A stretch of 22,290 nt of DNA. It comes from a virus. The position numbers and the translations under genes are program-made. Under the pieces are notes generated by a model, which saw nothing but the letters and a program-made list of their open reading frames with translations, did not search any database and was not told the DNA's origin. The stretch spans positions 1-22,290 of the IMG/VR virus record IMGVR_UViG_3300020404_002054. One strand, 5' to 3'. Position 1 is the stretch's first letter. Every line of letters starts with the position of its first letter. This document shows, piece by piece, positions 1,764 through 18,045 of this stretch.

Positions 1764-2219
1764 TCAGCTATACTCAAAATTTTGGCAAAGGCTCCCTTTA
1801 CGGAAAAACTTTGCTCCATTACGTAGGTGAAACTTTTCAGCCATTTCGGTTAAGGGTGATAGGGTCATAAAGCGTACAATGTCATCTCTTGTTTTTTTTA
1901 TGTGACGTTGTACTGCATTTACTATTTCTCTACCAGCACCCTTGTCATAACTCCACACTGTATAGAACATAGCAGTGTCAGGGTCATCAGTATTGTTAAG
2001 ATCTTTTTCAGTTAGTCCTACACCCTTGGTATAGGCTACACAAATTACTGCTCTGGGTCCTTCAAACATTACAGGGGCCGCTTCTGCATATTGGTCTTCA
2101 TACAGTGCGTATACTTCACGCCCATGCATTAGCCGCCAATCAGCAGGCAGATGTGGGCGAACCGGATCGTCCTTAGATAAAGGGTATACCTGTTCTAATG
2201 TTTCAAGTTTGACTAGCAA
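1764..2219 (-). CDS. GNAT-like N-acetyltransferase domain protein
   Basis: The 151-aa protein has the size and layout of a single GNAT domain. A central beta-strand segment (AVICVAYTKGVG) is followed by AMFYTVWSYDKGAGREIVNAV, resembling the strand-4 and acyl-CoA-binding helix region. The C-terminal part (PLTEMAEKFHLRNGAKFFRK) resembles the 'moves to next helix, then N-G-F/A' end of GNAT proteins. Substrate is unknown. The start is a TTG at 2217-2219, supported by AGGAGAG about 7 nt upstream; the coding region overlaps the end of the DnaE-like gene by 7 nt. The family call is by pattern, not search. Confidence 0.55.
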   Translation of the reverse strand: MLVKLETLEQVYPLSKDDPVRPHLPADWRLMHGREVYALYEDQYAEAAPVMFEGPRAVICVAYTKGVGLTEKDLNNTDDPDTAMFYTVWSYDKGAGREIVNAVQRHIKKTRDDIVRFMTLSPLTEMAEKFHLRNGAKFFRKGSLCQNFEYS

Positions 2220-3868
2220 ATATTACTCTCCTGTAGTTTTTTATTCCATTCTTGTAAAGTATATATCTTAGAATCTGTAGATTGAATGTAATCTGAGTTG
2301 TTGCTGTGCTTGATTTGACCCGAGCCAACTACTACATCACCATCCCTATATGCAAATGGACGCTGTATAGTTACGTCAATATATTCACCATAGTTTGTGC
2401 CTAGTGTAAGAAATGTAACCCAGCGATTGCCTTTGCCTCTAAACACCCTACCATTTGCAATTACTCCTGCAAATGATACACGCTCTAGCCATTGTTGTTT
2501 TACTCCACACCCTTTAATAAATCCGTGTTGCCACCAACCTGGTTTAGTATCTATACCTTTGCGATGTGCTTCACATTGATACACCCACTGCTTGTATGAT
2601 CCTTGACAGTGTTTGAGATTGGCACGCCAAAATGCTTCTGGGTTATGTGCTTTCTGATATGCTAGAGCCCATATAAGTCTGCCTAAGTTTACAGCATGTG
2701 CTCTACATAATCCAAAGCCTGATAGTTCTTGTAGTGCGGCCATTGCTTCTGCCTTACGTGGATTGTTACCCATACGCTCTACAAACTCTAATATCTTTTC
2801 ATCATTCTTTTTTGCAAACGCTCGTCTGTACATGTCTGCTTCGTACATGTCGACACCTATAATGTTTGAGATAATATCAATAGCATCATCTTCAAACACA
2901 ATACTATCCTGTACAACTTCTTGTGACCAGTCTTGGAACATAGCGGCCTTTTGTCTTCCGCTCATTGCAACAGGACGTATCATTGCAGTAGCGAACACAC
3001 AGTCGTATACGCTAGTCGGTTGTATAGCTCTAAACAGTCTACGCATTGCAGGTGATTCACCTTGTGTTACACCTAGTACATCTCCTCTAGACAGTAATGC
3101 ACTTGCTAGTTCATCTGTCTCTGGATATTCAGTTAATGGTGTGTGAGGATCAATCTCCATAAGTTGTGACAGTCCTCTGTTTGCTAGTATATCAACTTTG
3201 AGATGTTCTAAGTCTTCTACTTCATGTTTGTCTAATAGTATTTGGTTGTCTTGTGATATTAATGATTTTGGTAATTGCCTTGTAAACATAACTACGCCTC
3301 CACAGTGTTTTGATATTGCTCTTTTCTTACCCATCAGCTTACGTTCAATACGCTTTGCTTCTTTTGGATCTACACCTACGTTTTCGTAAGTGAAGTTGCG
3401 TGGAAGATTACCTGTGGCACCGAGTCGCTTCGCCGCTTCTCGTCTTGCCGACTTTTCTTTATAGGTTACGTAGTTGCTCAATCGAGCAGTCTTACCTGGC
3501 CATTTCTTGAATATCCTTTCCATGACTTCCGTCTGTCGATGATGTTCAAAGTCTATGTCAACATCTGGCAGGTCGTCCCTTAAAGGGTTCATGAACCGTG
3601 CCACAGGTATGTTCCACTTTATTGGGTCTACATCTGTAATACCCAACAAGTAGCATACAAGACTGCTTCCTGCAGAACCTCTAGTCATATGAGTAAGGTC
3701 TGTAGTTAAGTCAATGATGTCACAAATTTGTAGGAAGTAATCAGTGAATCGCTGGTTTATGATGAGCTCAAATTCTTCTGCCAGTCGATTTTGATAGTTG
3801 TCTCCGAATGGAATAGGCCTTTTAAATCTGTCTAATAGCCTTTGTATATTTTCTAAATCTGTTGCCAT
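2213..3868 (-). CDS. dnaE-like: DnaE-like (C-family) DNA polymerase III alpha protein lacking the PHP domain
   Basis: This 551-aa protein aligns by eye with the palm, thumb, fingers and OB portions of bacterial Pol III alpha. Landmarks are RGSAGSS (residues 63-69; GRGSAAGS in DnaE), PDVDIDF (101-107, with Asp104 and Asp106 as the metal-binding pair), KHCGGVV (188-193), LKVDIL with the third Asp at 226, the VTQGESPAMRRL segment, ATAMIRP, and the GLCRAHAVN motif (FNKSHA in DnaE). A C-terminal GVIANGRVFRGKGNRWVTFL segment matches the OB fold. The N-terminal PHP exonuclease domain and the C-terminal tail are absent, so it is less than half of the usual about 1,100 aa. AAGAGG sits just upstream of the ATG. 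It lies directly downstream of the replicative helicase gene, so a replication role is likely; whether it is an active polymerase cannot be decided here. Confidence 0.85.
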   Translation of the reverse strand: MATDLENIQRLLDRFKRPIPFGDNYQNRLAEEFELIINQRFTDYFLQICDIIDLTTDLTHMTRGSAGSSLVCYLLGITDVDPIKWNIPVARFMNPLRDDLPDVDIDFEHHRQTEVMERIFKKWPGKTARLSNYVTYKEKSARREAAKRLGATGNLPRNFTYENVGVDPKEAKRIERKLMGKKRAISKHCGGVVMFTRQLPKSLISQDNQILLDKHEVEDLEHLKVDILANRGLSQLMEIDPHTPLTEYPETDELASALLSRGDVLGVTQGESPAMRRLFRAIQPTSVYDCVFATAMIRPVAMSGRQKAAMFQDWSQEVVQDSIVFEDDAIDIISNIIGVDMYEADMYRRAFAKKNDEKILEFVERMGNNPRKAEAMAALQELSGFGLCRAHAVNLGRLIWALAYQKAHNPEAFWRANLKHCQGSYKQWVYQCEAHRKGIDTKPGWWQHGFIKGCGVKQQWLERVSFAGVIANGRVFRGKGNRWVTFLTLGTNYGEYIDVTIQRPFAYRDGDVVVGSGQIKHSNNSDYIQSTDSKIYTLQEWNKKLQESNIC

Positions 3869-3933
3869 AATAGCCTCTTACTTTCTTGTATGCCTAACGC
3901 ACTACATTGTGCAAGAGTATTTAGCTCTGTAAA
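3869..3933. other. Intergenic gap between helicase and DnaE-like genes
   Basis: This 65-nt spacer contains a CTAAATACTC late-type box (minus strand) and an imperfect GCAC-AATGTA-GTGC inverted repeat. It ends in AAGAGG before the DnaE-like ATG. No terminator with a U-run is visible. Confidence 0.4.
3918..3924 (-). promoter_or_regulatory. Possible T4-type late promoter box CTAAATA
   Basis: The minus strand reads GAGCTAAATACTCTTG, matching 9 of 10 positions of the T4 late consensus core TATAAATACTC except at the first bases. It lies 49 nt upstream of the DnaE-like ATG. A late promoter ahead of a polymerase gene would be unusual, so it may be fortuitous. Confidence 0.35.
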
Positions 3934-5367
3934 TTACTCGTCACCTAAATTGTTGAGGAATTGTTTTAATTTTGTAGAGTCTACTTCTGCTTTAATTTTG
4001 CCAACAGTATCTCCTTCTGAAGGATCTTGATGTTCGCTACCTGGCTCTATTGGTGCTCCACTGCCACGTTTGATTTGATCAAACACAGTTGACTTACGTT
4101 TCTGAAACTCTTGATATTCTTCATCTTCACCTAAGTCACGTATACGTAAACTATCAACATCAAATTCTAAATCAATCTTTTGTCCAACACCACTCGAACT
4201 TCTAGTTTTCATTAACTGTATCTGATAACGTCCACGCTCACGCATAGCTCTACTTGTAAAGATACCAATCAAGTTATCAGCAGTATTAATCTTAGATATA
4301 CCACCACTGATGTGCGAATGATCAAACTCAATCTCTTCTACCGAACTTCTATTCAACTGCGATGCTGTTACAAATAATGTGTTTAATTCCATAGCCAAGT
4401 TACGTAGTTCTTCAGATACATACTTGTCTTTTACAAACAAGTTCTCTGCACTAATCTTAGCCGCAACAGGATGCATCAAATCTAAATAATCTACAAGCAA
4501 TACATCTACTTTCTTACCTGTTTTGATTTCATATTCTTTTAAGAATGCTCTAATATCATTTGCATTTTTGCCTGTAGGCATATACTTAACTTGGAAAGCA
4601 CCAGACTTCTTACCGATCATCTTAACTTTCATTTCAACATCATCTATACTCTTAAAAATATCTCTGCTTGGAATATCTGTAGTCATACTATCTACACGCA
4701 TACTAACCAAGTTTTCAGAAAGTTCAAATGTCAAATAAATTACGTTCAATCCTGCTAGTGCCCAGTTCACTCCTAAGTTTGCTAAGAACAAACTCTTACC
4801 ACTACCACTACCACCTGCAAATATATTCAGTTCACCTCTGTTGAATCCGCCAAACAGTTTCTTATCTAGTGCAGGCCAACCTGTGCTTACTTGTCCATTC
4901 TTATCTTTGATTGCTTCTAGTCTTGCTCTTGGATCTTGCCAATAGTCTGTACCTAAGTCTTTTTGCAATCCTATTTGTACAGCCTTCTTAACTAAATCTT
5001 CTACAGGACCATACTCACCTTTTTCAAGTAAGTCTGCACTTTTAAGTATTGCACTTTCTAATGCCTTATGTCTACTAAATGTTTCAAAGTCTGTTAGCAA
5101 CCAATCATAGTGTTCTTCTTTTAATGTTTCTGCAGGTTGTTCAAGATTACTTTTTGCACTTGCATTAACCATATCAAATGTAGGAAGTGCATTATGTTCA
5201 GTTACATAATCAAATATAAATTGTGCAGGGTCTTGTAATCTTCTGTCAAATGCTTTTGGATCAAATACATTCTGACAACGCACAAAACTTTCTGCATCTG
5301 TCAAGAACATTTCTAAATATACTTTTTGTATATCATATCCATAATCTGCATTTTGTCTTACAGCCAT
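3934..5367 (-). CDS. 41: Replicative DNA helicase, DnaB/gp41 family
   Basis: The protein has 477 aa, the usual size of T4 gp41-type hexameric helicases that unwind the fork 5' to 3' and work with primase. An N-terminal helical domain (about 1-150) is followed by a RecA-like domain: GGFNRGELNIFAGG leads into Walker A GGSGSGKS (185-192), FELSENL is the H1a-like segment with catalytic Glu, and VDVLLVDYLDL (288-298) is Walker B. FVTASQLNR is motif H3. The C-terminal tail is acidic and low in complexity. The ATG overlaps the stop of the upstream oxygenase gene as TAATG, indicating translational coupling. The downstream neighbour is the DnaE-like gene. Confidence 0.93.
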   Translation of the reverse strand: MAVRQNADYGYDIQKVYLEMFLTDAESFVRCQNVFDPKAFDRRLQDPAQFIFDYVTEHNALPTFDMVNASAKSNLEQPAETLKEEHYDWLLTDFETFSRHKALESAILKSADLLEKGEYGPVEDLVKKAVQIGLQKDLGTDYWQDPRARLEAIKDKNGQVSTGWPALDKKLFGGFNRGELNIFAGGSGSGKSLFLANLGVNWALAGLNVIYLTFELSENLVSMRVDSMTTDIPSRDIFKSIDDVEMKVKMIGKKSGAFQVKYMPTGKNANDIRAFLKEYEIKTGKKVDVLLVDYLDLMHPVAAKISAENLFVKDKYVSEELRNLAMELNTLFVTASQLNRSSVEEIEFDHSHISGGISKINTADNLIGIFTSRAMRERGRYQIQLMKTRSSSGVGQKIDLEFDVDSLRIRDLGEDEEYQEFQKRKSTVFDQIKRGSGAPIEPGSEHQDPSEGDTVGKIKAEVDSTKLKQFLNNLGDE

Positions 5368-5993
5368 TATTGCATTCTTCCTTGTATCATATCATATTTC
5401 AATTCTGTCAAATCACCTGCTGACCCAAAGCCTTCTATGGGTACACTATTCAAGCTCATACTATATCTTTTTACATCAGTATTTACAGTTACTTCATGCT
5501 CTAACCAACTAGGAAAGAGTATAAGTCCGTACTTCATAGGTTGTATATGATATTGATTGTACGGCGCTATTTCTACATTACGTTTTACCATTAAGAAGTC
5601 ATCATCTTCTTTTGTGAACGTAATGGCAGTATCGTGATCATCAAAATAAAACACACCACTTATCAAACTGTTTGGGTGTTTGTGTGCAATGTGTTTTTGT
5701 GAATTATCCTTGATACTTACCCAACTCTGTGTTAGCGCCATACCTGCAATGTCATAACCTAAAACTCTTATTGAATATTCATCTAAGCAATCTATAATCC
5801 AATTGCGTAGTGTTGACACTTCAGGATTGTTTAGTACATAACTACTTGCACTTCTAAAGCCATAGTTGTCTGTAACTTCATCTGTTGTTTTAGCCAACGG
5901 TAATTTTTGTAAAAAAGTGACATCACTTTCAATATCCAAATTACAGATATCCATAAAAATATGTGTTGGAAATAATTGTTCTACTCGTCCCAT
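5367..5993 (-). CDS. Putative Fe(II)/2-oxoglutarate oxygenase (TIGR02466-like)
   Basis: The 208-aa protein from the ATG at 5991-5993 resembles the TIGR02466 group: an N-terminal LFPTHIF, then QSWVSIKDNSQKHIAHKHP, SLISGVFYF, and later ILFPSWLEHEVTV with KRYSMSLN. Candidate metal ligands are among His101, His104 and His106 plus His166, and Arg176 is a candidate 2OG-binding residue. Such enzymes hydroxylate or demethylate unknown substrates. A TTG at 6027-6029 would extend the frame by 12 residues, but the extension would include a consensus promoter. I choose the ATG, which lies exactly 6 nt past the -10 box and has no Shine-Dalgarno sequence, suggesting a leaderless start. Confidence 0.75.
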   Translation of the reverse strand: MGRVEQLFPTHIFMDICNLDIESDVTFLQKLPLAKTTDEVTDNYGFRSASSYVLNNPEVSTLRNWIIDCLDEYSIRVLGYDIAGMALTQSWVSIKDNSQKHIAHKHPNSLISGVFYFDDHDTAITFTKEDDDFLMVKRNVEIAPYNQYHIQPMKYGLILFPSWLEHEVTVNTDVKRYSMSLNSVPIEGFGSAGDLTELKYDMIQGRMQ

Positions 5994-5999
5994 ATTACT

Positions 6000-6029
6000 A
6001 TTATACAGCCTTATACCATTGTTTGTCAA
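6000..6029 (-). promoter_or_regulatory. Consensus sigma-70 promoter, leaderless arrangement
   Basis: On the minus strand TTGACA (6024-6029) and TATAAT (6000-6005) are both perfect, with an 18-bp spacer. Six nt (AGTAAT) separate the -10 box from the ATG at 5993, so the expected +1 is the A of ATG. The promoter lies in the 3' end of the carbamoyltransferase gene. This looks like an early promoter recognised by unmodified host RNA polymerase. Confidence 0.8.
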
Positions 6030-7002
6030 GTGTTATTTTGTTTCTAGCCTTAGCCAAAACTGCTCCAATACAACTGCCTGGATCGCCTGGATTAGGCGGT
6101 ACATATACGCTTTCCCATTGATTACGTATTTTGTCAACTGCATCTTTATTAAGAGCTCCGCCTCCTGCTAGTGCTACATGTCTTGCACCTGTAACTACTT
6201 TGGCATAGATACTCAATATGTTTACTGCATATTCAAAAATTGTTTGAGTAGCCGCGGCTAAATCATACAGCTCTTGTTTAGATTTTATTTCTGGTCTCCA
6301 CCACATACACCCTCTGTGTAAATTTTCTCTCATCTTAATTTCTTGCGGATTACGTTTAGTATGATCAACATTGATTATTTCATCACGTAAGAAACCTGCG
6401 TATCTTTTTGCATCTCCTTTTTTTGCCCATTGAGCAACTAGGTATTCATCACGTTGGGGTTGTAAGCCTAAGCGTTGTGTCATTGCACTATAGAACAATC
6501 CTAAACTGTGTGGATAGCTCTGACTATGTATGTTTTGTAATTTGTTGTTCTTTCCATGCCACATAGTCAGTGTTTCAAATTCTCCTATGCTGTCTAAACA
6601 TATTACTGCACAGTCATCTTGAGGCTGTGTGTAATATGCATATGCCGCATGTGATTCGTGATGTTGTGTATACTCTATAGGATGATTTATATCCCAACGT
6701 GCTAGATAATCTTTTATGTTATTTTCTTTGTAAAGCCAACCTTGTCCTGCTCTCCATTGACGCAATGTTTTTAAGAAAGGTCTTTCGTACCAAACAATCT
6801 TATGTGGCGGACCAAAGCTCTGACGTGCAACTTCTAATTGTGTCCAATTAGGATCAGGGTCATTAGGAACTTTACTAAAGTCCTTTGCTAAACTAGCCCA
6901 CAATAAATCTGTGCGTCTATGATCAGTCAATCCTGCTATGTGTGTATCAAAGACGGCTAAACTAGCGTCATGGCTATTGCCAACCATTCCCCATATAATC
7001 AT
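6001..7002 (-). CDS. Carbamoyltransferase, NodU/TobZ-like, Kae1-type domain only
   Basis: This enzyme class moves a carbamoyl group from carbamoyl phosphate to a sugar or antibiotic hydroxyl. The protein shows the Kae1/ASKHA-like features of the N-terminal domain: NSHDASLAVF near residue 9, HHESHAA (114-120, the metal-binding HxxxH), CLDSIGEFET, SLGLFYSAMTQRLG, the glycine-rich ALAGGGALN and PPNPGDPGSCIGA. At 333 aa it stops where full-length family members (about 550-600 aa) continue into a YrdC-like carbamoyl-adenylate domain. NodU-type genes are known from T4-like cyanophages. I start at ATG 7000-7002, preceded by GAGGA with a 5-nt gap; a GTG at 7014 is also in frame. A consensus promoter for the next gene is embedded in its 3' end. 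Confidence 0.85.
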   Translation of the reverse strand: MIIWGMVGNSHDASLAVFDTHIAGLTDHRRTDLLWASLAKDFSKVPNDPDPNWTQLEVARQSFGPPHKIVWYERPFLKTLRQWRAGQGWLYKENNIKDYLARWDINHPIEYTQHHESHAAYAYYTQPQDDCAVICLDSIGEFETLTMWHGKNNKLQNIHSQSYPHSLGLFYSAMTQRLGLQPQRDEYLVAQWAKKGDAKRYAGFLRDEIINVDHTKRNPQEIKMRENLHRGCMWWRPEIKSKQELYDLAAATQTIFEYAVNILSIYAKVVTGARHVALAGGGALNKDAVDKIRNQWESVYVPPNPGDPGSCIGAVLAKARNKITLDKQWYKAV

Positions 7003-7010
7003 ATGATTCC

Positions 7011-7133
7011 TCACTTGTATATAAACGGATCTTGCTTCTTCAACTCTTCAATTCTTTTCTTGATTAGTTGTTTACGTTTGTATTCAGTAATAGGCCAAGT
7101 TACCCATTCCCATATCTTTTTTATGTAAACCAT
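7011..7133 (-). CDS. Conserved 40-aa basic phage protein
   Basis: A complete small ORF starts at the ATG 7131-7133 and ends in TGA at 7011-7013. The protein starts MVYIKKIWEWVTWP, continues with a Lys/Arg-rich helix and ends KKQDPFIYK. The Trp-rich start and D-P-F-I-Y-K ending resemble a tiny protein found in T4-like cyanophages (recalled, not searched). It overlaps the primase 3' end by 13 nt and its stop lies 9 nt before the carbamoyltransferase ATG, whose GAGGA binding site overlaps its stop codon. An amphipathic, membrane- or nucleic-acid-associating peptide is possible. Function is unknown. Confidence 0.65.
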   Translation of the reverse strand: MVYIKKIWEWVTWPITEYKRKQLIKKRIEELKKQDPFIYK

Positions 7134-8125
7134 TTTTTCTGCCTTAATTTAATTTTTAGTGAAGATTCCTCTGCACCAGTTACAATACTATAAAGTGTAT
7201 ATAGACGTCCGTACTTATTCACTGCATCGCCGATATCACTTATATCTTGGCTCCACTCTGGCATACTTACGCTCCAGCCTAGTTCAATTGCTTGGCTAAT
7301 TAGTTTACTTCCTGCTTTGTCTCTATCAGGCACAATTATAATTTGTTTCTGTAACTTGTTCAATAACATAGCCTGTTGCTCTGATACTTCACTGCCTCCT
7401 AATGCACACCCTTCAACATGTATAGCATCTATTTGTCCTTCACACACAATAGTAAAAACTTTATTGTGTCTTTGTTCATCTAATCCATACACATATCCTG
7501 GCTGTACCTCAGTTAAGTATTTTGGCTTTTTATCCTGTTGTATAGTACGAGCAGTCCACCCTACTATACGCCCTTCATAATAAAAAGGTATAATAAGTCT
7601 GTCTCTATAAGCAAGTTCAGGAGTCCAATAGTAATCTGTATCGTCAATATACAAATTACGATCTTTCATATATTCAAATATTTTAATTAAGTTCTTATCA
7701 ACTCCTGTAGGCTCTAAAGCACAATAGTCTGCCCAGTCCTGCAATTTACGTGCAGTCTCTGGTAAAGGCACTGTAGTGAAACTAGGCAATAGTGTTTTGT
7801 GTTTTTGTATTTCAACACCCTCATTTTCACGCATAACATCTAGTGCTACCTTATTGATTATATCGTCAGGCGTACTCATCCATTGAAGTAACTTACGCAT
7901 CTTATGTGAAAATGGTCTACCAGGCTTCCAACTTGCTTTGAATCCACAGTTGAAACAATGATAACTTATACCATCGTCATTTTGAATTACGCCACCGCGT
8001 TGCCTCTTATCTGCTGTGTGGCCGTTGTGATGACAACACGGAGCGTTGAATGAAGTCCACCCACTAGGAGTTGTTTTCCTCTTAGAAGGCAAATAAGTCA
8101 GAACTGTTTCTACGACTACACTCAT
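7121..8125 (-). CDS. 61: DNA primase, DnaG/gp61 type
   Basis: The 334-aa protein (from ATG 8123-8125) makes RNA primers on the lagging strand together with the gp41-like helicase. An N-terminal zinc-binding module is visible: CC and HH at residues 30-33 and the pair CFNC (57-60), a CHC2/CHCC-type ribbon. A TOPRIM domain follows: TIVCEGQIDAI carries the catalytic Glu, and IIIVPDRDKAG carries the DxD. KPKYLTEVQPGYVYGLDE is typical of DnaG-like cores. A TTG at 8159-8161 would extend it by 12 residues but would include the promoter. The chosen ATG sits 7 nt past a consensus -10 box with no Shine-Dalgarno sequence. Confidence 0.9.
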   Translation of the reverse strand: MSVVVETVLTYLPSKRKTTPSGWTSFNAPCCHHNGHTADKRQRGGVIQNDDGISYHCFNCGFKASWKPGRPFSHKMRKLLQWMSTPDDIINKVALDVMRENEGVEIQKHKTLLPSFTTVPLPETARKLQDWADYCALEPTGVDKNLIKIFEYMKDRNLYIDDTDYYWTPELAYRDRLIIPFYYEGRIVGWTARTIQQDKKPKYLTEVQPGYVYGLDEQRHNKVFTIVCEGQIDAIHVEGCALGGSEVSEQQAMLLNKLQKQIIIVPDRDKAGSKLISQAIELGWSVSMPEWSQDISDIGDAVNKYGRLYTLYSIVTGAEESSLKIKLRQKKWFT

Positions 8126-8132
8126 ACTATGT

Positions 8133-8161
8133 ATTATAGTGTCTGTATAGCCAGATGTCAA
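8133..8161 (-). promoter_or_regulatory. Consensus sigma-70 promoter before the primase
   Basis: On the minus strand TTGACA (8156-8161) and TATAAT (8133-8138) are perfect with the ideal 17-bp spacer. Seven nt (ACATAGT) separate the -10 box from the primase ATG. The expected transcription start is therefore the base before the ATG or the ATG itself. The -35 region reads TTGACATCT, as does the one at 19271-19279. Confidence 0.85.
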
Positions 8162-8164
8162 CCT

Positions 8165-8572
8165 TTATTGGTTATAATAGCCTTGTTTTTGTAAGTCTTT
8201 TTTTGCTTTTTGCATTTGCTGAAAGTCATGCATCAATATGAAGTTATATGTTGTATTATTGAACGTTTGTGTTTCATCTACAAACATATATTTGTCTTGA
8301 TTATATAGTTCAGTTATTTCGTTATGCATTGTAGTATATTCATCTCTAGTTACAGGAAAGTCTAATAAAAATATTGCAACATCTACATTCCAGTTACTAG
8401 CAGTGTAATCTATCGCACCAGAAAGTCTTCCATAATCTTTACAACTATGAAAACTAATTTTATTTTGTTGAAGTGCTGGACCTGCAAACGGACATCTTGC
8501 TATGCCATTATGCTCGGGTAATTTTTCGCTGAGATAATTGTTGATCCAGTTTTTTATATCTTGTTCAAACAC
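8165..8572 (-). CDS. Conserved phage protein of unknown function (135 aa)
   Basis: The 135-aa soluble protein has an N-terminal ARCPFAGPALQQNKI segment with a second Cys about 18 residues later (HSCKDY). A C-P-F-A segment of this kind occurs in conserved hypothetical proteins of T4-like marine phages. The central part (VDVAIFLLDFP) looks like a buried beta strand. The C-terminus is Lys/Gln-rich. The start is a GTG at 8570-8572 with no convincing Shine-Dalgarno sequence; there is no alternative ATG nearby. It lies 7 nt after the stop of the virion-type gene. Function cannot be stated. Confidence 0.65.
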   Translation of the reverse strand: MFEQDIKNWINNYLSEKLPEHNGIARCPFAGPALQQNKISFHSCKDYGRLSGAIDYTASNWNVDVAIFLLDFPVTRDEYTTMHNEITELYNQDKYMFVDETQTFNNTTYNFILMHDFQQMQKAKKDLQKQGYYNQ

Positions 8573-8579
8573 AAGGTAT

Positions 8580-9359
8580 TTAATTACGTACTAATACTTT
8601 GTCTATAGTTCCGGCAACAGGCTCGTGCTTAATACGTATCCAACTAAACACACCATTGAAGTTTATGTATGTTGGTTCTGTAGGATTTGTTAAAGATGCT
8701 GTACTAACATCGACCCAGTTTGTATTACTGTCTACTAAGTTCTCTAATGTTGCTTGGATTGTTACATCACCCGTATATCCTGTTGTGTAAATTGCTGTGG
8801 TATGTAATGCTTCGTTACCGTTAAGAGCAGGTTCTGCTTCTATTGATTCACTTACATATACTTCAGAACTTGCTTCTGTAAACTGGCTTATACTATAAGA
8901 TTTTTTAGGCCCAGGTAATGTACCTGAATCTAGTTCAATAGTTCCTTTCGCTCCAAACTGTGCGTCTGCATATGTAACTATGTCATTGTCATTACTATCT
9001 ACAAGATAAACGAAGTATGTAAGGTATTGCCCGTCAAGGTTAAGTGTATCATTATCTGAAACAGTTATTGTAAACTGTCCTTTGTAGTTAGGTGTCGTTG
9101 TTTCTTTTATAGTACCTATCTTTTCTAATACTAATGTATTCGATTCATCGAATGCTTGGAAGTGAGCTGTATATGTATTTAAAATACTTATAGGCTTTTG
9201 ATCTTGATTTTTTATTTCAAAAGTAAGAACATTGTCTATACCTTTAATAATTTTTAGTTGTCTGTTATACACTTTTCTATACTCCGTAAGAGTCCCTGCC
9301 CAGTCATCTAAGACGAGGACCGTTTTGTTTGTTGCTAAATACCTTGACGTTAGTTGCAT
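8580..9359 (-). CDS. Putative virion structural protein (259 aa)
   Basis: The N-terminus (SRYLATNKTVLVLDDWAG, then YNRQLKIIKGIDNVLTF) resembles a family of structural proteins in T4-like marine phages. The rest is rich in Thr, Ser, Asn and beta-type alternation, with an immunoglobulin-like look (KPISILNTYTAHFQAFDESN; FTITVSDNDTLNLDG; WIRIKHEPVAGTIDKVLVRN). No enzymatic motif is present. It may be a baseplate, neck or fibre-associated protein. A late box GATAAATA lies only 4 nt upstream of the ATG, and there is no Shine-Dalgarno sequence; no other start codon exists in the first 20 codons. Late expression fits a structural role. Confidence 0.7.
   Translation of the reverse strand: MQLTSRYLATNKTVLVLDDWAGTLTEYRKVYNRQLKIIKGIDNVLTFEIKNQDQKPISILNTYTAHFQAFDESNTLVLEKIGTIKETTTPNYKGQFTITVSDNDTLNLDGQYLTYFVYLVDSNDNDIVTYADAQFGAKGTIELDSGTLPGPKKSYSISQFTEASSEVYVSESIEAEPALNGNEALHTTAIYTTGYTGDVTIQATLENLVDSNTNWVDVSTASLTNPTEPTYINFNGVFSWIRIKHEPVAGTIDKVLVRN
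9335..9341 (+). promoter_or_regulatory. Possible late promoter box CTAAATA for the plus-strand gene
   Basis: The plus strand reads GCTAAATACC 38 nt upstream of the ATG at 9380. It resembles the box at 3918-3924. A TTGACG follows at 9343-9348 but no fitting -10 box is placed 17 nt later. The call is weak but is the only plausible promoter for this lone plus-strand gene. Confidence 0.35.
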
Positions 9360-9363
9360 ATTA

Positions 9364-9371
9364 TATTTATC
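9364..9371 (-). promoter_or_regulatory. T4-type late promoter box GATAAATA, abutting a start codon
   Basis: The minus strand reads GATAAATATAATATG, with the virion-type ATG at 9357-9359. T4 late transcription normally begins about 6 nt past the box, so the message would start at or within the ATG. The box lies within the 20-nt gap between divergently oriented genes. Confidence 0.5.
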
Positions 9372-9379
9372 GGAATTTT

Positions 9380-9748
9380 ATGTTAAGAAAAGAATTAGAA
9401 GACAATTATCCTTTTTTAAGTGTGGTTACGTATGGCGGTGTGGAATACATCGGCATTATAAACAATCAAGACAGTAGTATCACAAGCATGTATGTGTATA
9501 CTGATCTACGCAGTGACACACAAAAGAAGCAGTTTATAAAATGTGGTGAAGACTGGTGGTGGGAATCAAATCGAATGATTCCTATTAGTATCTTTTTGAA
9601 AAAGGATATGGATCCGTTTAAGTATGTGTTACAAACTATGAATACAAAAGATGTAAAAGTAACACACGGACCAACTGTAGATTTAAGTAATCTTGCAATT
9701 AAAAGAGTTAAACGTAAAAGTATTCAACTAATACGTAAGCCTAAATAG
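9380..9748 (+). CDS. Conserved phage protein, only plus-strand gene (122 aa)
   Basis: This is the only gene on the plus strand. It resembles a conserved hypothetical of T4-like cyanophages, with the features GVEYIGIINNQD near the start, CGEDWWWESNRMIPISIFLKKDM in the middle (residues about 52-74) and a basic C-terminus (IKRVKRKSIQLIRKPK). The basic tail suggests nucleic-acid contact; function is unknown. I start at ATG 9380, with GGA 7 nt upstream, rather than an upstream in-frame start at 9329 inside the divergent gene. It converges with the short DnaE-like gene and overlaps its end by 8 nt. Confidence 0.8.
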   Translation: MLRKELEDNYPFLSVVTYGGVEYIGIINNQDSSITSMYVYTDLRSDTQKKQFIKCGEDWWWESNRMIPISIFLKKDMDPFKYVLQTMNTKDVKVTHGPTVDLSNLAIKRVKRKSIQLIRKPK

Positions 9749-10304
9749 ACTGAAATTTTTCACACAATAAATTCATGTGTACAACACACGCCATAGCATA
9801 AGATACAGCGTGTGCTTTTTTAAAATAATATTCACCGTTTGTTGGTTTGATCCAAACTTCTTTCATTATCGTCTCCCAGTCTTTGCTTGCTAGATGTCTC
9901 TTTGCTGGCCTTATTATCGCTAGTGTTGCCGCCAATTGTTCTACCGATTGCGGCTTCAATTGTTGCAACAGACTGTCGTGTCCGCTTAGATGAAAAACTT
10001 TTTCGACGAAGTCTTTGTGAACTAATAACTCCCATAGTGGCTCCTTTCTCATTAGGCTCATTAAATGTGTCTCGTCTCTTATATCTTTGTATATAGACAC
10101 ATTTAGAAAATCCAATTTAAAGTATCCGCGGTCTTCTGCTGTTTCGTAATCAATAGTTGAAAGTTTATCCACTGGGTTATGAGGACACTCAGTTACATAC
10201 ACACCTGTGTTATGTTTTTTACCTGTATCTAATTTTGCCACGCGGTGTTCTATCTTATCTAAGATAATATTTCTGTCAGCGAAATCTATATCAATATCAG
10301 GCAT
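9741..10304 (-). CDS. Miniature DnaE-like protein (187 aa)
   Basis: The protein begins MPDIDIDFAD, exactly at the catalytic motif of Pol III alpha palms. It then shows KHNTGVYVTE (compare H-A-A/G-G-V), RGYFKLDFLNV with the third catalytic Asp (Asp65; the first pair is Asp5 and Asp7), HLSGHDSLLQQLKPQSVEQLA, LAIIRP, and YYFKKAHAVSYAM (compare FNKSHAAAYAL). The N-terminal GRGS region, about 70 residues between the first two motifs, most of the fingers and the OB fold are missing. Similar short proteins seem to exist in other T4-like marine phages (recalled). Its ATG follows the stop of a 54-aa ORF directly (TAAATG). It may be a non-catalytic replication partner or regulator; activity is unproven. 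Confidence 0.75.
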   Translation of the reverse strand: MPDIDIDFADRNIILDKIEHRVAKLDTGKKHNTGVYVTECPHNPVDKLSTIDYETAEDRGYFKLDFLNVSIYKDIRDETHLMSLMRKEPLWELLVHKDFVEKVFHLSGHDSLLQQLKPQSVEQLAATLAIIRPAKRHLASKDWETIMKEVWIKPTNGEYYFKKAHAVSYAMACVVHMNLLCEKFQSI

Positions 10305-10469
10305 TTATATTGTCCAACTCTTTAGTTGTTGTTTAGTAGGCTCCATAGGTTTTACTTTTTCTATCTTGCCACCCTTTGCTAAAAACTTCGCCATGCGTTC
10401 GTCCAGTTGTCTTTGTAACTCTGCAGGTGACGGAGTTGTATAGTCTTTTTCTTTATTATCGTTAGGCAT
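10305..10469 (-). CDS. Small unknown protein (54 aa)
   Basis: A complete ORF runs from ATG 10467-10469 to TAA 10305-10307 and fills the space between deformylase and the short DnaE-like gene. The protein starts MPNDNKEKDYTTPSPAELQR, then ERMAKFLAKGGKIEKVKPM, and ends LKSWTI. It is charged and probably helical with no enzyme motif. The start overlaps the deformylase stop by 8 nt, and the stop abuts the next ATG, so all three are probably one translation-coupled unit. Function is unknown; it could be a partner of the miniature DnaE-like protein. Confidence 0.65.
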   Translation of the reverse strand: MPNDNKEKDYTTPSPAELQRQLDERMAKFLAKGGKIEKVKPMEPTKQQLKSWTI

Positions 10470-11791: not shown

Positions 11792-12224
11792 GTCCTTCAG
11801 CCAATTCTTTGAGTTCTTTTTTTGTAGATGTTCCAGCAAGTAATTCTACCTCGTCCTCTTTCATATTAGGATAAATTTGTTTAATAAGTTTCATGCCAGC
11901 GGCAATGTTCTTACCCTCTTTCTTTTTCACGCCTATCCAAGGATGATATTCAATTTTTCCTGTGTTACCAGATAAGCATAATAGTTGCCATTGTAGTTTA
12001 GGATGTTTGCTTACAACCATATAGTTCTTATTGTAATATTCGTTCGTTTTGAATAAAGCAAGTTCTTGTTTTTCTCTGTTACCTGCTACTGCACTTACGT
12101 ATCTATTTAATAACCAAAAACTAACTTGCTTACGCTCGTCATCTGAAATCTCGTCCCATACATTTTTTGCACCCATATCTATGGCCGCTAATATATCTTT
12201 TATTGGGAGTTTTGTTTGTGCCAC
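11769..12224 (-). CDS. Conserved T4-like phage protein of unknown function (151 aa)
   Basis: The protein begins MAQTKLPIKDILAAIDMG and continues WLLNRYVSAVAGNREKQELALFKTNEYYNK, features I recall from hypotheticals of T4-like marine phages that sit next to the zinc-finger gene. It is soluble with a Lys/Glu-rich C-terminal third (TSTKKELKELAEGHG). No catalytic motif is visible. The start is a GTG at 12222-12224 inside the end of kdsB (25-nt overlap). The gene order next to the zinc-finger gene suggests these two work together. Confidence 0.7.
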   Translation of the reverse strand: MAQTKLPIKDILAAIDMGAKNVWDEISDDERKQVSFWLLNRYVSAVAGNREKQELALFKTNEYYNKNYMVVSKHPKLQWQLLCLSGNTGKIEYHPWIGVKKKEGKNIAAGMKLIKQIYPNMKEDEVELLAGTSTKKELKELAEGHGVDIKL

Positions 12225-12877
12225 TTGTCTAAATCCTCTGGTGTGTTAATTTCTGTGCCTTTAAAGTCAACTTCAACACAGCCTATTTCTACATGGTTTT
12301 GTATCCAACGTAATTGTTCTAATTGTTCTGCCTCTTCTTCTGCACTAGGTTTTGATTCTTTTAGTATTTGTGCAAGTCCAGATCTATATCCGTATATGCC
12401 AAGATGCCAATCACCATATGCAAGTTTAGCTCTACAAAACCAATGTGCGTAATCTCCAGTACGTATTAGTTTAACAGTATTTGGATCTTTTTGCAACTCT
12501 TTTGGCATAGTAGTATATGCAGTTGCTACATCATATAAGTCTAATTTGTCTCTTACAGACTTAACAATCTTACGTGTTATGTCAGGCATGTCGCCTTGTA
12601 CATTAATTACTTTATCATACTCTGTAGGTAAACGTGAAAGAGCTCCGAAGCATCTTTCAGTCCCGTTTTGGTAATCTCTATTATCTATAATAGTTTGTCC
12701 TTCAGGTATAACTTCTGCAACACGTTCATCGTCTGTAAGTACAAAGGTATCAATTTCAGCAGGGCAGTTATCATACACACGTCTAACCATAGGAGTACCA
12801 TTTAGTAGTGCAAGAGGCTTATCAGGAAACCTTGTACTTGCTACTCTAGCCGGTATAAGAATAACGCACGATTTCAT
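12200..12877 (-). CDS. kdsB: 3-deoxy-manno-octulosonate cytidylyltransferase
   Basis: KdsB activates KDO with CTP to CMP-KDO, the donor for LPS core and some capsules. The 225-aa protein is slightly shorter than bacterial KdsB (about 245). Landmarks match along the length: LIPARVASTRFPDKPL (8-22), NGTERC (71-76), VINVQGDMPDI (90-100, with Asp96 a metal ligand), FCRAKLAYGDWHLGIYGYR, AEQLEQLRW, and NTPEDL near the end with the second Asp ligand. The usual QGDEP is QGDMP here, a change next to the metal site. The ATG lies within the end of kdsA (32-nt overlap), so the two genes are coupled. Confidence 0.9.
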   Translation of the reverse strand: MKSCVILIPARVASTRFPDKPLALLNGTPMVRRVYDNCPAEIDTFVLTDDERVAEVIPEGQTIIDNRDYQNGTERCFGALSRLPTEYDKVINVQGDMPDITRKIVKSVRDKLDLYDVATAYTTMPKELQKDPNTVKLIRTGDYAHWFCRAKLAYGDWHLGIYGYRSGLAQILKESKPSAEEEAEQLEQLRWIQNHVEIGCVEVDFKGTEINTPEDLDKWHKQNSQ

Positions 12878-13619
12878 CTACGACCCTTTCAAAGTTATCT
12901 AGTTGTAACATATTTGGCCCGTCACTTGGCGACTGATCAGGCATAGGGTGTACTTCGATGAAGAAGGAACTGATCCCAAGAGCAGACCCGCTACGAGCCA
13001 ACCCAGGCACGTAATCACGATTGCCACCTGAACTAGTCCCGAGTCCCCCGGGCTTTTGGACAGAGTGCGTAACATCAAACACGATATCAGCATCAATATT
13101 GTCGAGCATATACATAAGACCAGTATAGTCGACCACAAGGCTATTGTAACCAAAACTCGTACCTCTCTCAGTTATCCAAACTTCTTTTGCTCCTGTAGTT
13201 TTACTAAGTATTCCTTGTACGTCCCAAGGTGCTAAGAATTGCCCCTTTTTTATATTTACAATTTTGTTAGTAGAGCAAGCCGCCTTTATGAGATCTGTTT
13301 GTCTACTTAAAAACGCAGGTATTTGTATTACGTCTACTGCATCATTGTAGTAAGCCGCAATTTTTAAAATTTCATTTTGATTATGTACGTCTGTAAGTGT
13401 TTTACAATCTACTTCTTGTTTGATAGCAAGAAAATCAGCCATTGTTGATTTTAATCCAACACCACGTACACCATCTATGTTTGTTCTATTTGCCTTGTCA
13501 AAACTTGCTTTGAATACATAATCTATATTATGCTTGTCACATACTCTTTTACATTCTTTAGCAATCATCAAACTATCAGTAAGTGTTTCATGTTGACAAG
13601 GTCCTGCTATAATTCTCAT
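12846..13619 (-). CDS. kdsA: KDO-8-phosphate synthase, metal-dependent class
   Basis: KdsA condenses PEP and arabinose-5-phosphate. The 257-aa protein is somewhat shorter than E. coli KdsA (284). Motifs: IAGPC (4-8), YVFKASFDKANR (34-45), PAFLSRQTDL (101-110), NIKKGQF (122-128), FGYNSLVVD (156-164), FDVTHSVQ (181-188) and FFIEVHP (219-225). Cys8, His185, Glu222 and Asp233 match the four metal ligands of the metal-dependent class (Aquifex type), whereas the E. coli type has Asn in place of the Cys. The ATG overlaps the upstream stop (ATGA) and has AGGAAA upstream. A consensus promoter precedes it. Residues about 181-220 are encoded by DNA far richer in GC than the rest. No kdsD or kdsC is seen, so the host must supply arabinose-5-phosphate and the phosphatase. 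Confidence 0.93.
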   Translation of the reverse strand: MRIIAGPCQHETLTDSLMIAKECKRVCDKHNIDYVFKASFDKANRTNIDGVRGVGLKSTMADFLAIKQEVDCKTLTDVHNQNEILKIAAYYNDAVDVIQIPAFLSRQTDLIKAACSTNKIVNIKKGQFLAPWDVQGILSKTTGAKEVWITERGTSFGYNSLVVDYTGLMYMLDNIDADIVFDVTHSVQKPGGLGTSSGGNRDYVPGLARSGSALGISSFFIEVHPMPDQSPSDGPNMLQLDNFERVVDEIVRYSYTG

Positions 13620-13882: not shown

Positions 13883-14560
13883 TTACTTAGAAGCCTTTGG
13901 CTTACGTCCACGCTTTGGCTTTACTTCATCTTTCAAAACTAATGGATCTACGCCCATTTTGCTTTTCAAGTATTTCAGTAACAATCCATACGCTGGTAGG
14001 AACACAATTAAGCCTACAACAATTTTTGTTAATGTATTGTTGAATGCTACTGGTCCAACCCACGGCGCTGGATAAAACGCTGTGTAAAAGAAAGTATATG
14101 TATCAATGATGTTAGCCGCGATAGTTGAAATCGCCGGTGCCGCCCACCACATATCTGTATACTTTTCTCTAATGTGTTGGAACACATATACGTCAAGCAT
14201 TGTACCTACTGCATATGCAGTACCTGATGCAATACCTACTCTGTATGCATGTTCATCGCCTAGTGCAAGTAATACTAACACTGATGCAATAATTGCAGGA
14301 ATAATTGCCATTGCTACAACAGCTCTACCTGCCTGCTTACCGACCATACGTACTGTTAAGTCAGTTGCAACGACTACAATTGGAAATGTAAATGCGGCCG
14401 CCGCTAATGGAAACTCACCAAACAATGGTAAGTCTGCACCTGGGAACACATTAAATCTAATTGTAACTAAGTAATTACTTACTGCAATTACAAGTGTGTG
14501 TAGTATTACAAGATTTCTAATTAGAGTCTTGTCTACACCTTCTAAAAGTTTTCCGAACAT
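13883..14560 (-). CDS. yhhQ: Queuosine precursor transporter, YhhQ/VUT family
   Basis: The family imports preQ0 or preQ1-type 7-deazaguanine bases across the inner membrane. The 225-aa protein has about six hydrophobic segments: VILHTLVIAVSNYLV; PLAAAAFTFPIVVVATD; VVAMAIIPAIIASVLVLLAL; ASGTAYAVGTMLDVYVF; a later ISTIAANIIDTYTFFY; and IVVGLIVFLPAYGLLL. The family-like TDLTVRMVGKQAGR (with the conserved Asp and Gly) and SGTAYAVGTMLDVYVFQ are visible. The C-terminal tail is Lys-rich and cytosolic. AAGGAG precedes the ATG by 5 nt. No queCDE, tgt or dpdA gene is in the window. Phages with 7-deazaguanine DNA modification sometimes carry such transporters, so a role in DNA modification or tRNA-Q supply is possible. 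Confidence 0.85.
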   Translation of the reverse strand: MFGKLLEGVDKTLIRNLVILHTLVIAVSNYLVTIRFNVFPGADLPLFGEFPLAAAAFTFPIVVVATDLTVRMVGKQAGRAVVAMAIIPAIIASVLVLLALGDEHAYRVGIASGTAYAVGTMLDVYVFQHIREKYTDMWWAAPAISTIAANIIDTYTFFYTAFYPAPWVGPVAFNNTLTKIVVGLIVFLPAYGLLLKYLKSKMGVDPLVLKDEVKPKRGRKPKASK

Positions 14561-16587: not shown

Positions 16588-18045
16588 TTATTTCCAATCC
16601 ACTTTTTCTATTGTAAAAGGGTACTCTGCTTCCTTATAAAACTTTTTACGTTGTGTAAGGTGCCGCTTCGCAAACTTACATGTAGATGTAAGATCCCATA
16701 TCTGTACGAAGTCTTTGTCCTTTGCCTTTCTTACGCCTCTGCCTATTGATTGTATTACTCTTACAAAACTTTTACCAGGTTCAATAAGTACAAGATTAAA
16801 AATACGAGGTATGTTTATACCAACAGCCGCAACACCATAAGTAGCAATTACTACATGGTTGGTGCCTTCATTGATTTCATCATATGCTTCTTTTCTATCT
16901 TTTAACTTTACATCACCTTTGACAAACGTACTGCCTGGTATAAGTTCAGCAAGTGTTTCTCCTGCTGATATTCTGTCTACTAGTATTAATGTGTTGCCTG
17001 ATTGTTTTACATTGTTTAAAAGTTTGCCTATATACTCCATTCTTTCTTTATTTGTAACTAGATATTTTAATTCTGATTGATAATCACTATGCGATACTGT
17101 ATCCATTAATTGAACAACATTCACGTGACATTGTGATAGAACGCCTTTATCTTGTAATTCTTTTGCACTTATATTACCTATGACTGGTCCTAAACTTGCA
17201 TGAATACTTTCAAATTCAAATTTTTCTTTAGGTATAGTGCCTGTCAGTCCCCAACGTATAGGTGCATTTCTTAAATTTCTTGTTAGTAAGTTTTTCAGCA
17301 CTTCTGCTTTTGCTTGGTGTACCTCGTCAATAATAATAGTGCTTACACCTTCTAAAAACTCTGCAAGACTCAATACGGCTGAACCGTCTTTATGTTTCTT
17401 GTCAAGTATGTTTAAACTTTGCCAAGTACAAATTGTATGAGTCTTGCCTAGCTCTTTTCTGTCGCCAAAGTATACGCCAACATCAAGTCCACAGTTAATG
17501 TAGTCTTCTTCGGTTTGTGTTACCAAACTCTTATTAGGGACTACAACTAGACTACGTCCATATGGTTCTGTGATCTTCGATAGTGTAGCAGTGATAATAG
17601 TCTTTCCAGCGCCTGTAGCCACTTCTTGCAATGCTTGAGGATTTTGCAAAAAGTTGTTTACAACTTCTACTTGATAATCCCTTAATCGTATTGGTTCGCC
17701 TTCGGCAGGATGACCTTTTGGCCAGGTTTTATTACCCCAGAAATCTTCTTGTATATCTTTAAAATCTAATTGTATAGGATGACGTTTATCTTCAATGTCA
17801 ACTATTTGAACATTATTTTTTGCCAATACATCACTAATAATATTGAGATGATTAACATAACCGGAACCGCCGATACCAAAGAAAGCAACTTTGCCATCCC
17901 ATCTTCCCAACTTATATTGTGGCATGTATCTAGCGTATGGCACTTCAAACTTAAGAGCGTTAGCGAGCTTCCTGCGTACATCTACTTCTAGTCCTTCTAG
18001 TTTAATATTTACTTCGTCTTCAATTACTAATTTACATGTTGCCAT
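16588..18045 (-). CDS. uvsW: UvsW-like recombination helicase (superfamily 2)
   Basis: T4 UvsW unwinds branched DNA, including D-loops and stalled forks, and shifts phage replication from origin- to recombination-dependent start. The 485-aa length fits (T4 UvsW is about 500). SF2 motifs: RDYQ (122-125), Walker A VATGAGKT (142-149), DEVH (240-243), GLTGT (266-270), and QSIGRGVRKAKD near the end as motif VI. The N-terminal domain (about 1-100) has PYARYMPQYKLGRWDG and GSGYVNHLN, as in UvsW proteins. It starts with TAATG overlap to the 399-aa upstream gene. Confidence 0.92.
   Translation of the reverse strand: MATCKLVIEDEVNIKLEGLEVDVRRKLANALKFEVPYARYMPQYKLGRWDGKVAFFGIGGSGYVNHLNIISDVLAKNNVQIVDIEDKRHPIQLDFKDIQEDFWGNKTWPKGHPAEGEPIRLRDYQVEVVNNFLQNPQALQEVATGAGKTIITATLSKITEPYGRSLVVVPNKSLVTQTEEDYINCGLDVGVYFGDRKELGKTHTICTWQSLNILDKKHKDGSAVLSLAEFLEGVSTIIIDEVHQAKAEVLKNLLTRNLRNAPIRWGLTGTIPKEKFEFESIHASLGPVIGNISAKELQDKGVLSQCHVNVVQLMDTVSHSDYQSELKYLVTNKERMEYIGKLLNNVKQSGNTLILVDRISAGETLAELIPGSTFVKGDVKLKDRKEAYDEINEGTNHVVIATYGVAAVGINIPRIFNLVLIEPGKSFVRVIQSIGRGVRKAKDKDFVQIWDLTSTCKFAKRHLTQRKKFYKEAEYPFTIEKVDWK

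Follow-up and report, generated by a model that had tools for sequence, protein, structure and literature searches.

In 2021 Iyer et al. (PMC7824862) reported that T4-like jumbo phages of group 2.2 carry a minimal Pol III alpha beside gp43, and that this minimal enzyme is split into two distant genes, one for an NTP-binding half and the other for a metal/DNA-binding half. In bacterial replicases the PHP domain was described as strictly conserved (PMC3666897). The window analysed here, an IMG/VR virus record of 22,290 bases, contains two DnaE-like open reading frames where the original prediction had placed them, both on the minus strand, one coding for 187 aa (9741-10304) and the other for 551 aa (2213-3868). 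We consider it probable that the 187-aa protein is the C subunit of a split Pol III alpha that stands beside gp43, and that the 551-aa protein is an independent, likely active accessory polymerase. The C-terminal family and the genomic block are common to the system of PMC7824862 and to the window, the division into an NTP-binding and a metal/DNA-binding half is likewise found, and gp43 is present alongside in relatives. The locus differs in that the N-terminal half (N unit) lies outside the 22-kb window, and in that part of the marine clade adds a third C-family gene, that of the 551-aa protein, which the passages of PMC7824862 consulted do not mention.

By its sequence, the 187-aa protein corresponds to the C-terminal half (C unit) of a minimal DNA polymerase III alpha that is split in two, and its family was already described in 2021. 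It matched the profile phrog_11778 ('DNA polymerase') with an E value of 1.5e-59 over residues 3-183, and comprises the latter half of the palm, including the metal-binding residues D3, D5 and D65, as well as a reduced fingers region. Its N-terminal start reads MPDIDIDF, and the prediction that it begins at PDIDIDF and keeps all three catalytic Asp residues held, as D3, D5 and D65 align with D401, D403 and D555 of E. coli DnaE and were invariant in 87 of 87 aligned sequences. The residues H31, G34, K63, R132, P133, K162, H165 and Y169 were also invariant in this set, and the motifs LAxIRP and FKKxHAxxY of the remaining fingers were kept and nearly invariant. As to what has been lost, absence of the N-terminal half and of the mid-fingers was recognized correctly (occupancy of 0.14 over E. 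coli residues 641-740, including RRAMGKK at 709); to this the thumb has to be added, with an occupancy of 0.12 over residues 433-510 in the alignment. An AlphaFold model of the protein (mean pLDDT 93.4) was structurally similar to E. coli alpha 2hnh residues 400-781 (VIA Z 9.1) and to Taq alpha 3e0d (VIA Z 10.0). The first 14 structural matches were all Pol III alpha or PolC (Z 6.3-10.0, with 172-185 of the 187 residues aligned), and the next one was an unrelated protein at Z 3.5. Since dN/dS was about 0.07-0.14 for the 187-aa protein against its relatives and about 0.02-0.10 for the 551-aa protein, neither reading frame is a product of chance or decay.

The half that is missing from the 187-aa protein was found in relatives as a separate N-terminal protein of ~170-185 aa (phrog_11127), which has a GRGSS motif and is encoded far from the C unit, so that both halves of the split enzyme, phrog_11127 and phrog_11778, were recovered in this analysis. 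According to its profile, the N unit corresponds to E. coli alpha as far as residue 393, and the C unit begins, at PDIDIDF, with the equivalent of residue 400; the N half is the natural partner of the 187-aa protein. The proposal of a split C-family enzyme was thus right about the split, with the partner being phrog_11127 and not the 551-aa or the 54-aa protein encoded nearby. All five isolates had the N unit, as did two long IMG/VR genomes to which the 187-aa protein had led. In the 22-kb window, which is an incomplete genome, it was absent, and an N-unit search there matched the 551-aa gene only.

In order to count co-occurrence, 16 records of at least 190 kb were tested for the N half, the C half and a family B polymerase, and the N half, the C half and gp43 were found together in 14 of them. 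Seven of these genomes had been reached through the C half, which makes their N half an independent find, and seven through the N half, for which the same is true of the C half. The suggestion that DnaE-like proteins had replaced gp43 is not supported, as gp43 is present in all 14 genomes that hold both halves, namely PA5oct, Atu_ph07, Phosso, RaK2, Vibrio 2.275.O and nine IMG/VR genomes. The original prediction had taken gp43 together with a loss of the catalytic Asp residues in relatives as evidence against itself; gp43 was indeed present and the Asp residues were invariant. The N unit occurred in seven of the eight records of at least 190 kb reached through the C half, the eighth being the incomplete record G014. 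Two of the 16 records, G014 and G055, were without one of the halves. G055 (191 kb) has only the N half and no PolB, and the exception of G014 is explained by truncation of the record, as the N unit and gp43 of the collinear G029 lie in the part that is missing from G014. G014 (L552-L557) also has, at about 154-245 kb, a large variable region of ~90 kb with almost no counterpart in G029.

Within the window, again an incomplete genome, there was no PF00136 (DNA_pol_B) match, and neither the N unit nor gp43 was found in the window-type contigs with the 551-aa gene, which are all fragments of at most 183 kb. One of these, G030 (155 kb), shows collinearity with G029 over no more than 0-79 kb of the latter, and in G029 the N unit lies at 183 kb and gp43 at 211 kb, beyond the collinear part. 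A loss of gp43 in window-type phages can therefore not be claimed, as both G030 and G014 miss the region of G029 in which gp43 and the N unit reside. We strongly expect that the phage of the window carries gp43 and the N unit; the window-type contigs checked are fragments without exception. No family A polymerase was matched in 26 records.

The 551-aa protein (2213-3868) has the features of a compact single-chain Pol III alpha, as seen from Pfam matches, a structural model and the catalytic Asp residues, and is encoded by an accessory gene. It matched DNA_pol3_alpha (E 1.5e-44) and DNA_pol3_finger (E 1.3e-13) and, in agreement with the prediction of a Pol III alpha-like protein without PHP, no Pfam match to PHP was found in it or in 30 members of its family. 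In the predicted model (pLDDT 83.3, pTM 0.82) the palm, thumb and fingers extend over about residues 1-445, aligned to E. coli alpha 284-822, with VIA Z values of 19-25 to DnaE-type alpha, and are followed at about 460-538 by an OB fold with a Z of about 9 to SSB and PriB. Only ~15 residues separate the end of the fingers match (445) from the OB fold (460), leaving no beta-binding domain. As the model starts near E. coli residue 284 and passes from the fingers to the OB fold, the protein lacks both the PHP and the beta-binding domain. Its residues D102, D104 and D226 align with E. coli D401, D403 and D555 and were invariant in 152 aligned sequences of the 551-aa type, so that palm, thumb and fingers with the catalytic Asp triad are present as in cellular DnaE. 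Like bacterial DnaE-type Pol III alpha, the 551-aa protein thus has palm, thumb, fingers, OB fold and catalytic Asp residues; unlike it, it is without PHP and beta-binding domains, is about half as long and falls in a viral clade of its own.

A maximum-likelihood tree of 259 columns resolved three clades, the 551-aa type (98%), the split type (100%) and full-length DnaE (70%), with the deep branching order among them unsettled. A 187-aa protein that is a fragment or a recent duplicate of the 551-aa gene is ruled out, since the two sit in separate clades. The uncultured phage LR756508 (484 kb) codes for gp43 and for a 574-aa homologue, with 37% identity over 95% of the 551-aa protein, which aligns with it over its whole length and has an intact active site; unlike the 551-aa gene of the window, the gene of this homologue adjoins no recognized replication gene. 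Among bacterial genomes there were only two distant hits to the 551-aa type, one of them a full-length DnaE of 1,123 aa at 24% identity, and plasmids yielded ordinary dnaE only (26-28%). One plasmid record, 'plasmid 4' of Listeria (L566, NZ_LR134401.1), is 810 kb long, contains core genes such as dnaE and accD, and is probably a piece of a chromosome under the wrong label. No description of a single-chain PHP-less form was found in the open-access literature searched, in which this family appears to be undescribed, and an earlier description elsewhere is possible.

The original prediction also raised the possibility that the 551-aa and 187-aa proteins are the subunits of one C-family polymerase. 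Some 6 kb separates the two genes, which belong to the same block, and the 187-aa protein is also encoded in 23 of the 24 checked contigs that bear a gene of the 551-aa type. Nevertheless, we regard such an enzyme as very improbable. With palm, thumb and fingers all complete, the 551-aa protein has no need of a second catalytic half. A gene of the 551-aa type was found in none of the 14 genomes with the N half, the C half and gp43, and in only five of 29 loci of the 187-aa protein with at least 1.5 kb beyond dnaB; conversely, LR756508 has the 551-aa type with neither split half. The related locus L006, for the most part 77-83% identical to the window, is without exactly the 551-aa gene. DNA identity is 79% on one side of the empty site and 77% on the other, and positions 3934 and 2221 of the window correspond to 14180 and 14190 of L006. 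As L006 retains the 187-aa protein, the 551-aa gene is accessory and its product is not the partner of that protein. The 54-aa neighbour, which the original prediction had wished to see included in a modelled complex, is ruled out as a subunit by its absence from L006, and it was present at one of 81 loci, that of the window itself.

It was further suggested that the 187-aa protein could be a regulatory decoy, that is, a catalytically dead regulator of host Pol III which, for example, occupies holoenzyme subunits. Such a role would agree with the lack of the nucleotide-binding half, the thumb and the mid-fingers, owing to which the protein cannot polymerize alone. We find this role unlikely, as there is no variation in the three catalytic Asp residues or in K63, R132, K162, H165 and Y169 among the 87 sequences, the same genomes preserve an N half that fits the protein, and the parts of alpha that bind the holoenzyme (the PHP, beta-binding and C-terminal domains) are absent from the 187-aa protein. 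A possible, if doubtful, alternative is that the split pair is a nucleotidyltransferase of another kind, acting in end modification, short gap filling or priming, and not a template-directed polymerase. The absence of a thumb and of the RRAMGKK segment of the fingers points in this direction and means that template-directed synthesis by the pair is not assured, and relatives have a normal gp43 available for genome replication. On the other hand, the nearly invariant LAxIRP and FKKxHAxxY motifs suggest that contacts with template and nucleotide were retained.

The favoured reading, a split Pol III alpha beside gp43 together with a separate 551-aa polymerase, draws on sequence anatomy, conservation, predicted folds, co-occurrence, separate ancestry and the empty site, which were computed directly; from it we infer that the N and C units form a heterodimer, that this has polymerase activity and what its role in the cell may be. 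The N half would contribute the opening half of the palm, including GRGSS, the nucleotide-phosphate motif, and the C half the two-metal Asp triad and the reduced fingers region, so that the heterodimer might rebuild a nucleotidyltransferase site of ~360 aa without PHP, thumb and clamp-binding parts. The pair would work beside the gp43 replicase, and its most likely tasks are repair, the filling of gaps or a specialized step of replication; the missing thumb and mid-fingers argue for short or specialized synthesis rather than processive replication. As the exact split point and the missing parts are now fixed, reconstitution is directly testable. The 551-aa gene may have been gained by some members of the group, or lost by others, next to the DnaB helicase gene, and its product is most likely, from its conserved domains and residues, an active accessory polymerase that would stand alone, with the template strand perhaps held by its OB fold. 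We give about even odds to a marine T4-like jumbo group with three polymerases, namely gp43, a thumb-less Pol III core of ~360 aa made from two genes and a single-chain, PHP-less 551-aa Pol III with an OB fold.

With the 187-aa protein, the split enzyme, so far recognized from sequences alone, is extended to hundreds of virus contigs. The 551-aa family has the appearance of a family C polymerase that dispenses with PHP, the domain reported to be strictly conserved in the replicases of bacteria. On the three-polymerase reading, the 551-aa form would represent a compact and so far undescribed branch of family C, derived independently and functioning with neither PHP nor clamp binding. Were it active, it would establish a compact core in a single chain and could offer a small and convenient model enzyme.

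The C unit belongs to a conserved block in which it is followed by a convergent gene, a virion protein gene, the primase gene and the DnaB helicase gene. This order is the same in PA5oct and RaK2 and, with one extra gene, in Phosso. In the window the convergent gene is small, lies on the plus strand (9329-9748) and matched phrog_11637 (E 1.4e-35), which has no assigned function. It also adjoins the C unit in Atu_ph07 and Vibrio 2.275.O and was present at 79 of 81 loci, being almost as widespread as the C unit itself, to which it could be functionally linked. The gp61/DnaG-like primase (7121-8161, phrog_47, E 1.7e-40) and the DnaB/gp41-like replicative helicase (3934-5367, phrog_19, E 1.7e-69) are both encoded on the minus strand, as is a UvsW-like helicase (16588-18045, phrog_16, E 8.8e-81) at the upstream end of the replication block; uvsW is likewise upstream of the C unit in RaK2. 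In the clade of the window the 551-aa gene is directly downstream of the DnaB/gp41-like helicase gene, and a helicase was near the gene of the 551-aa type in 42 of 51 loci tested; in the two more distant loci with neighbours examined, the DnaB helicase gene was not nearby.

Several further genes were observed in the window, all on the minus strand, and anti-phage defence models gave no match. A carbamoyltransferase and a 2OG-Fe(II) oxygenase are encoded between the primase and helicase genes (5367-7014), and a membrane protein of the Vut_1 family, a putative vitamin uptake transporter, is present in this phage genome at 13883-14560. Adjoining genes for a CMP-Kdo-synthetase-like cytidylyltransferase and a DAHP/KdsA-like synthase were found at 12200-13619, a pair which suggests synthesis or modification of a surface sugar. 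The 54-aa reading frame just upstream of the C unit (10305-10469) matched Pfam SutA-RBD, the domain by which SutA binds RNA polymerase, with 29.5 bits against a cut-off of 29.3, and its product is possibly a phage peptide that binds RNA polymerase.
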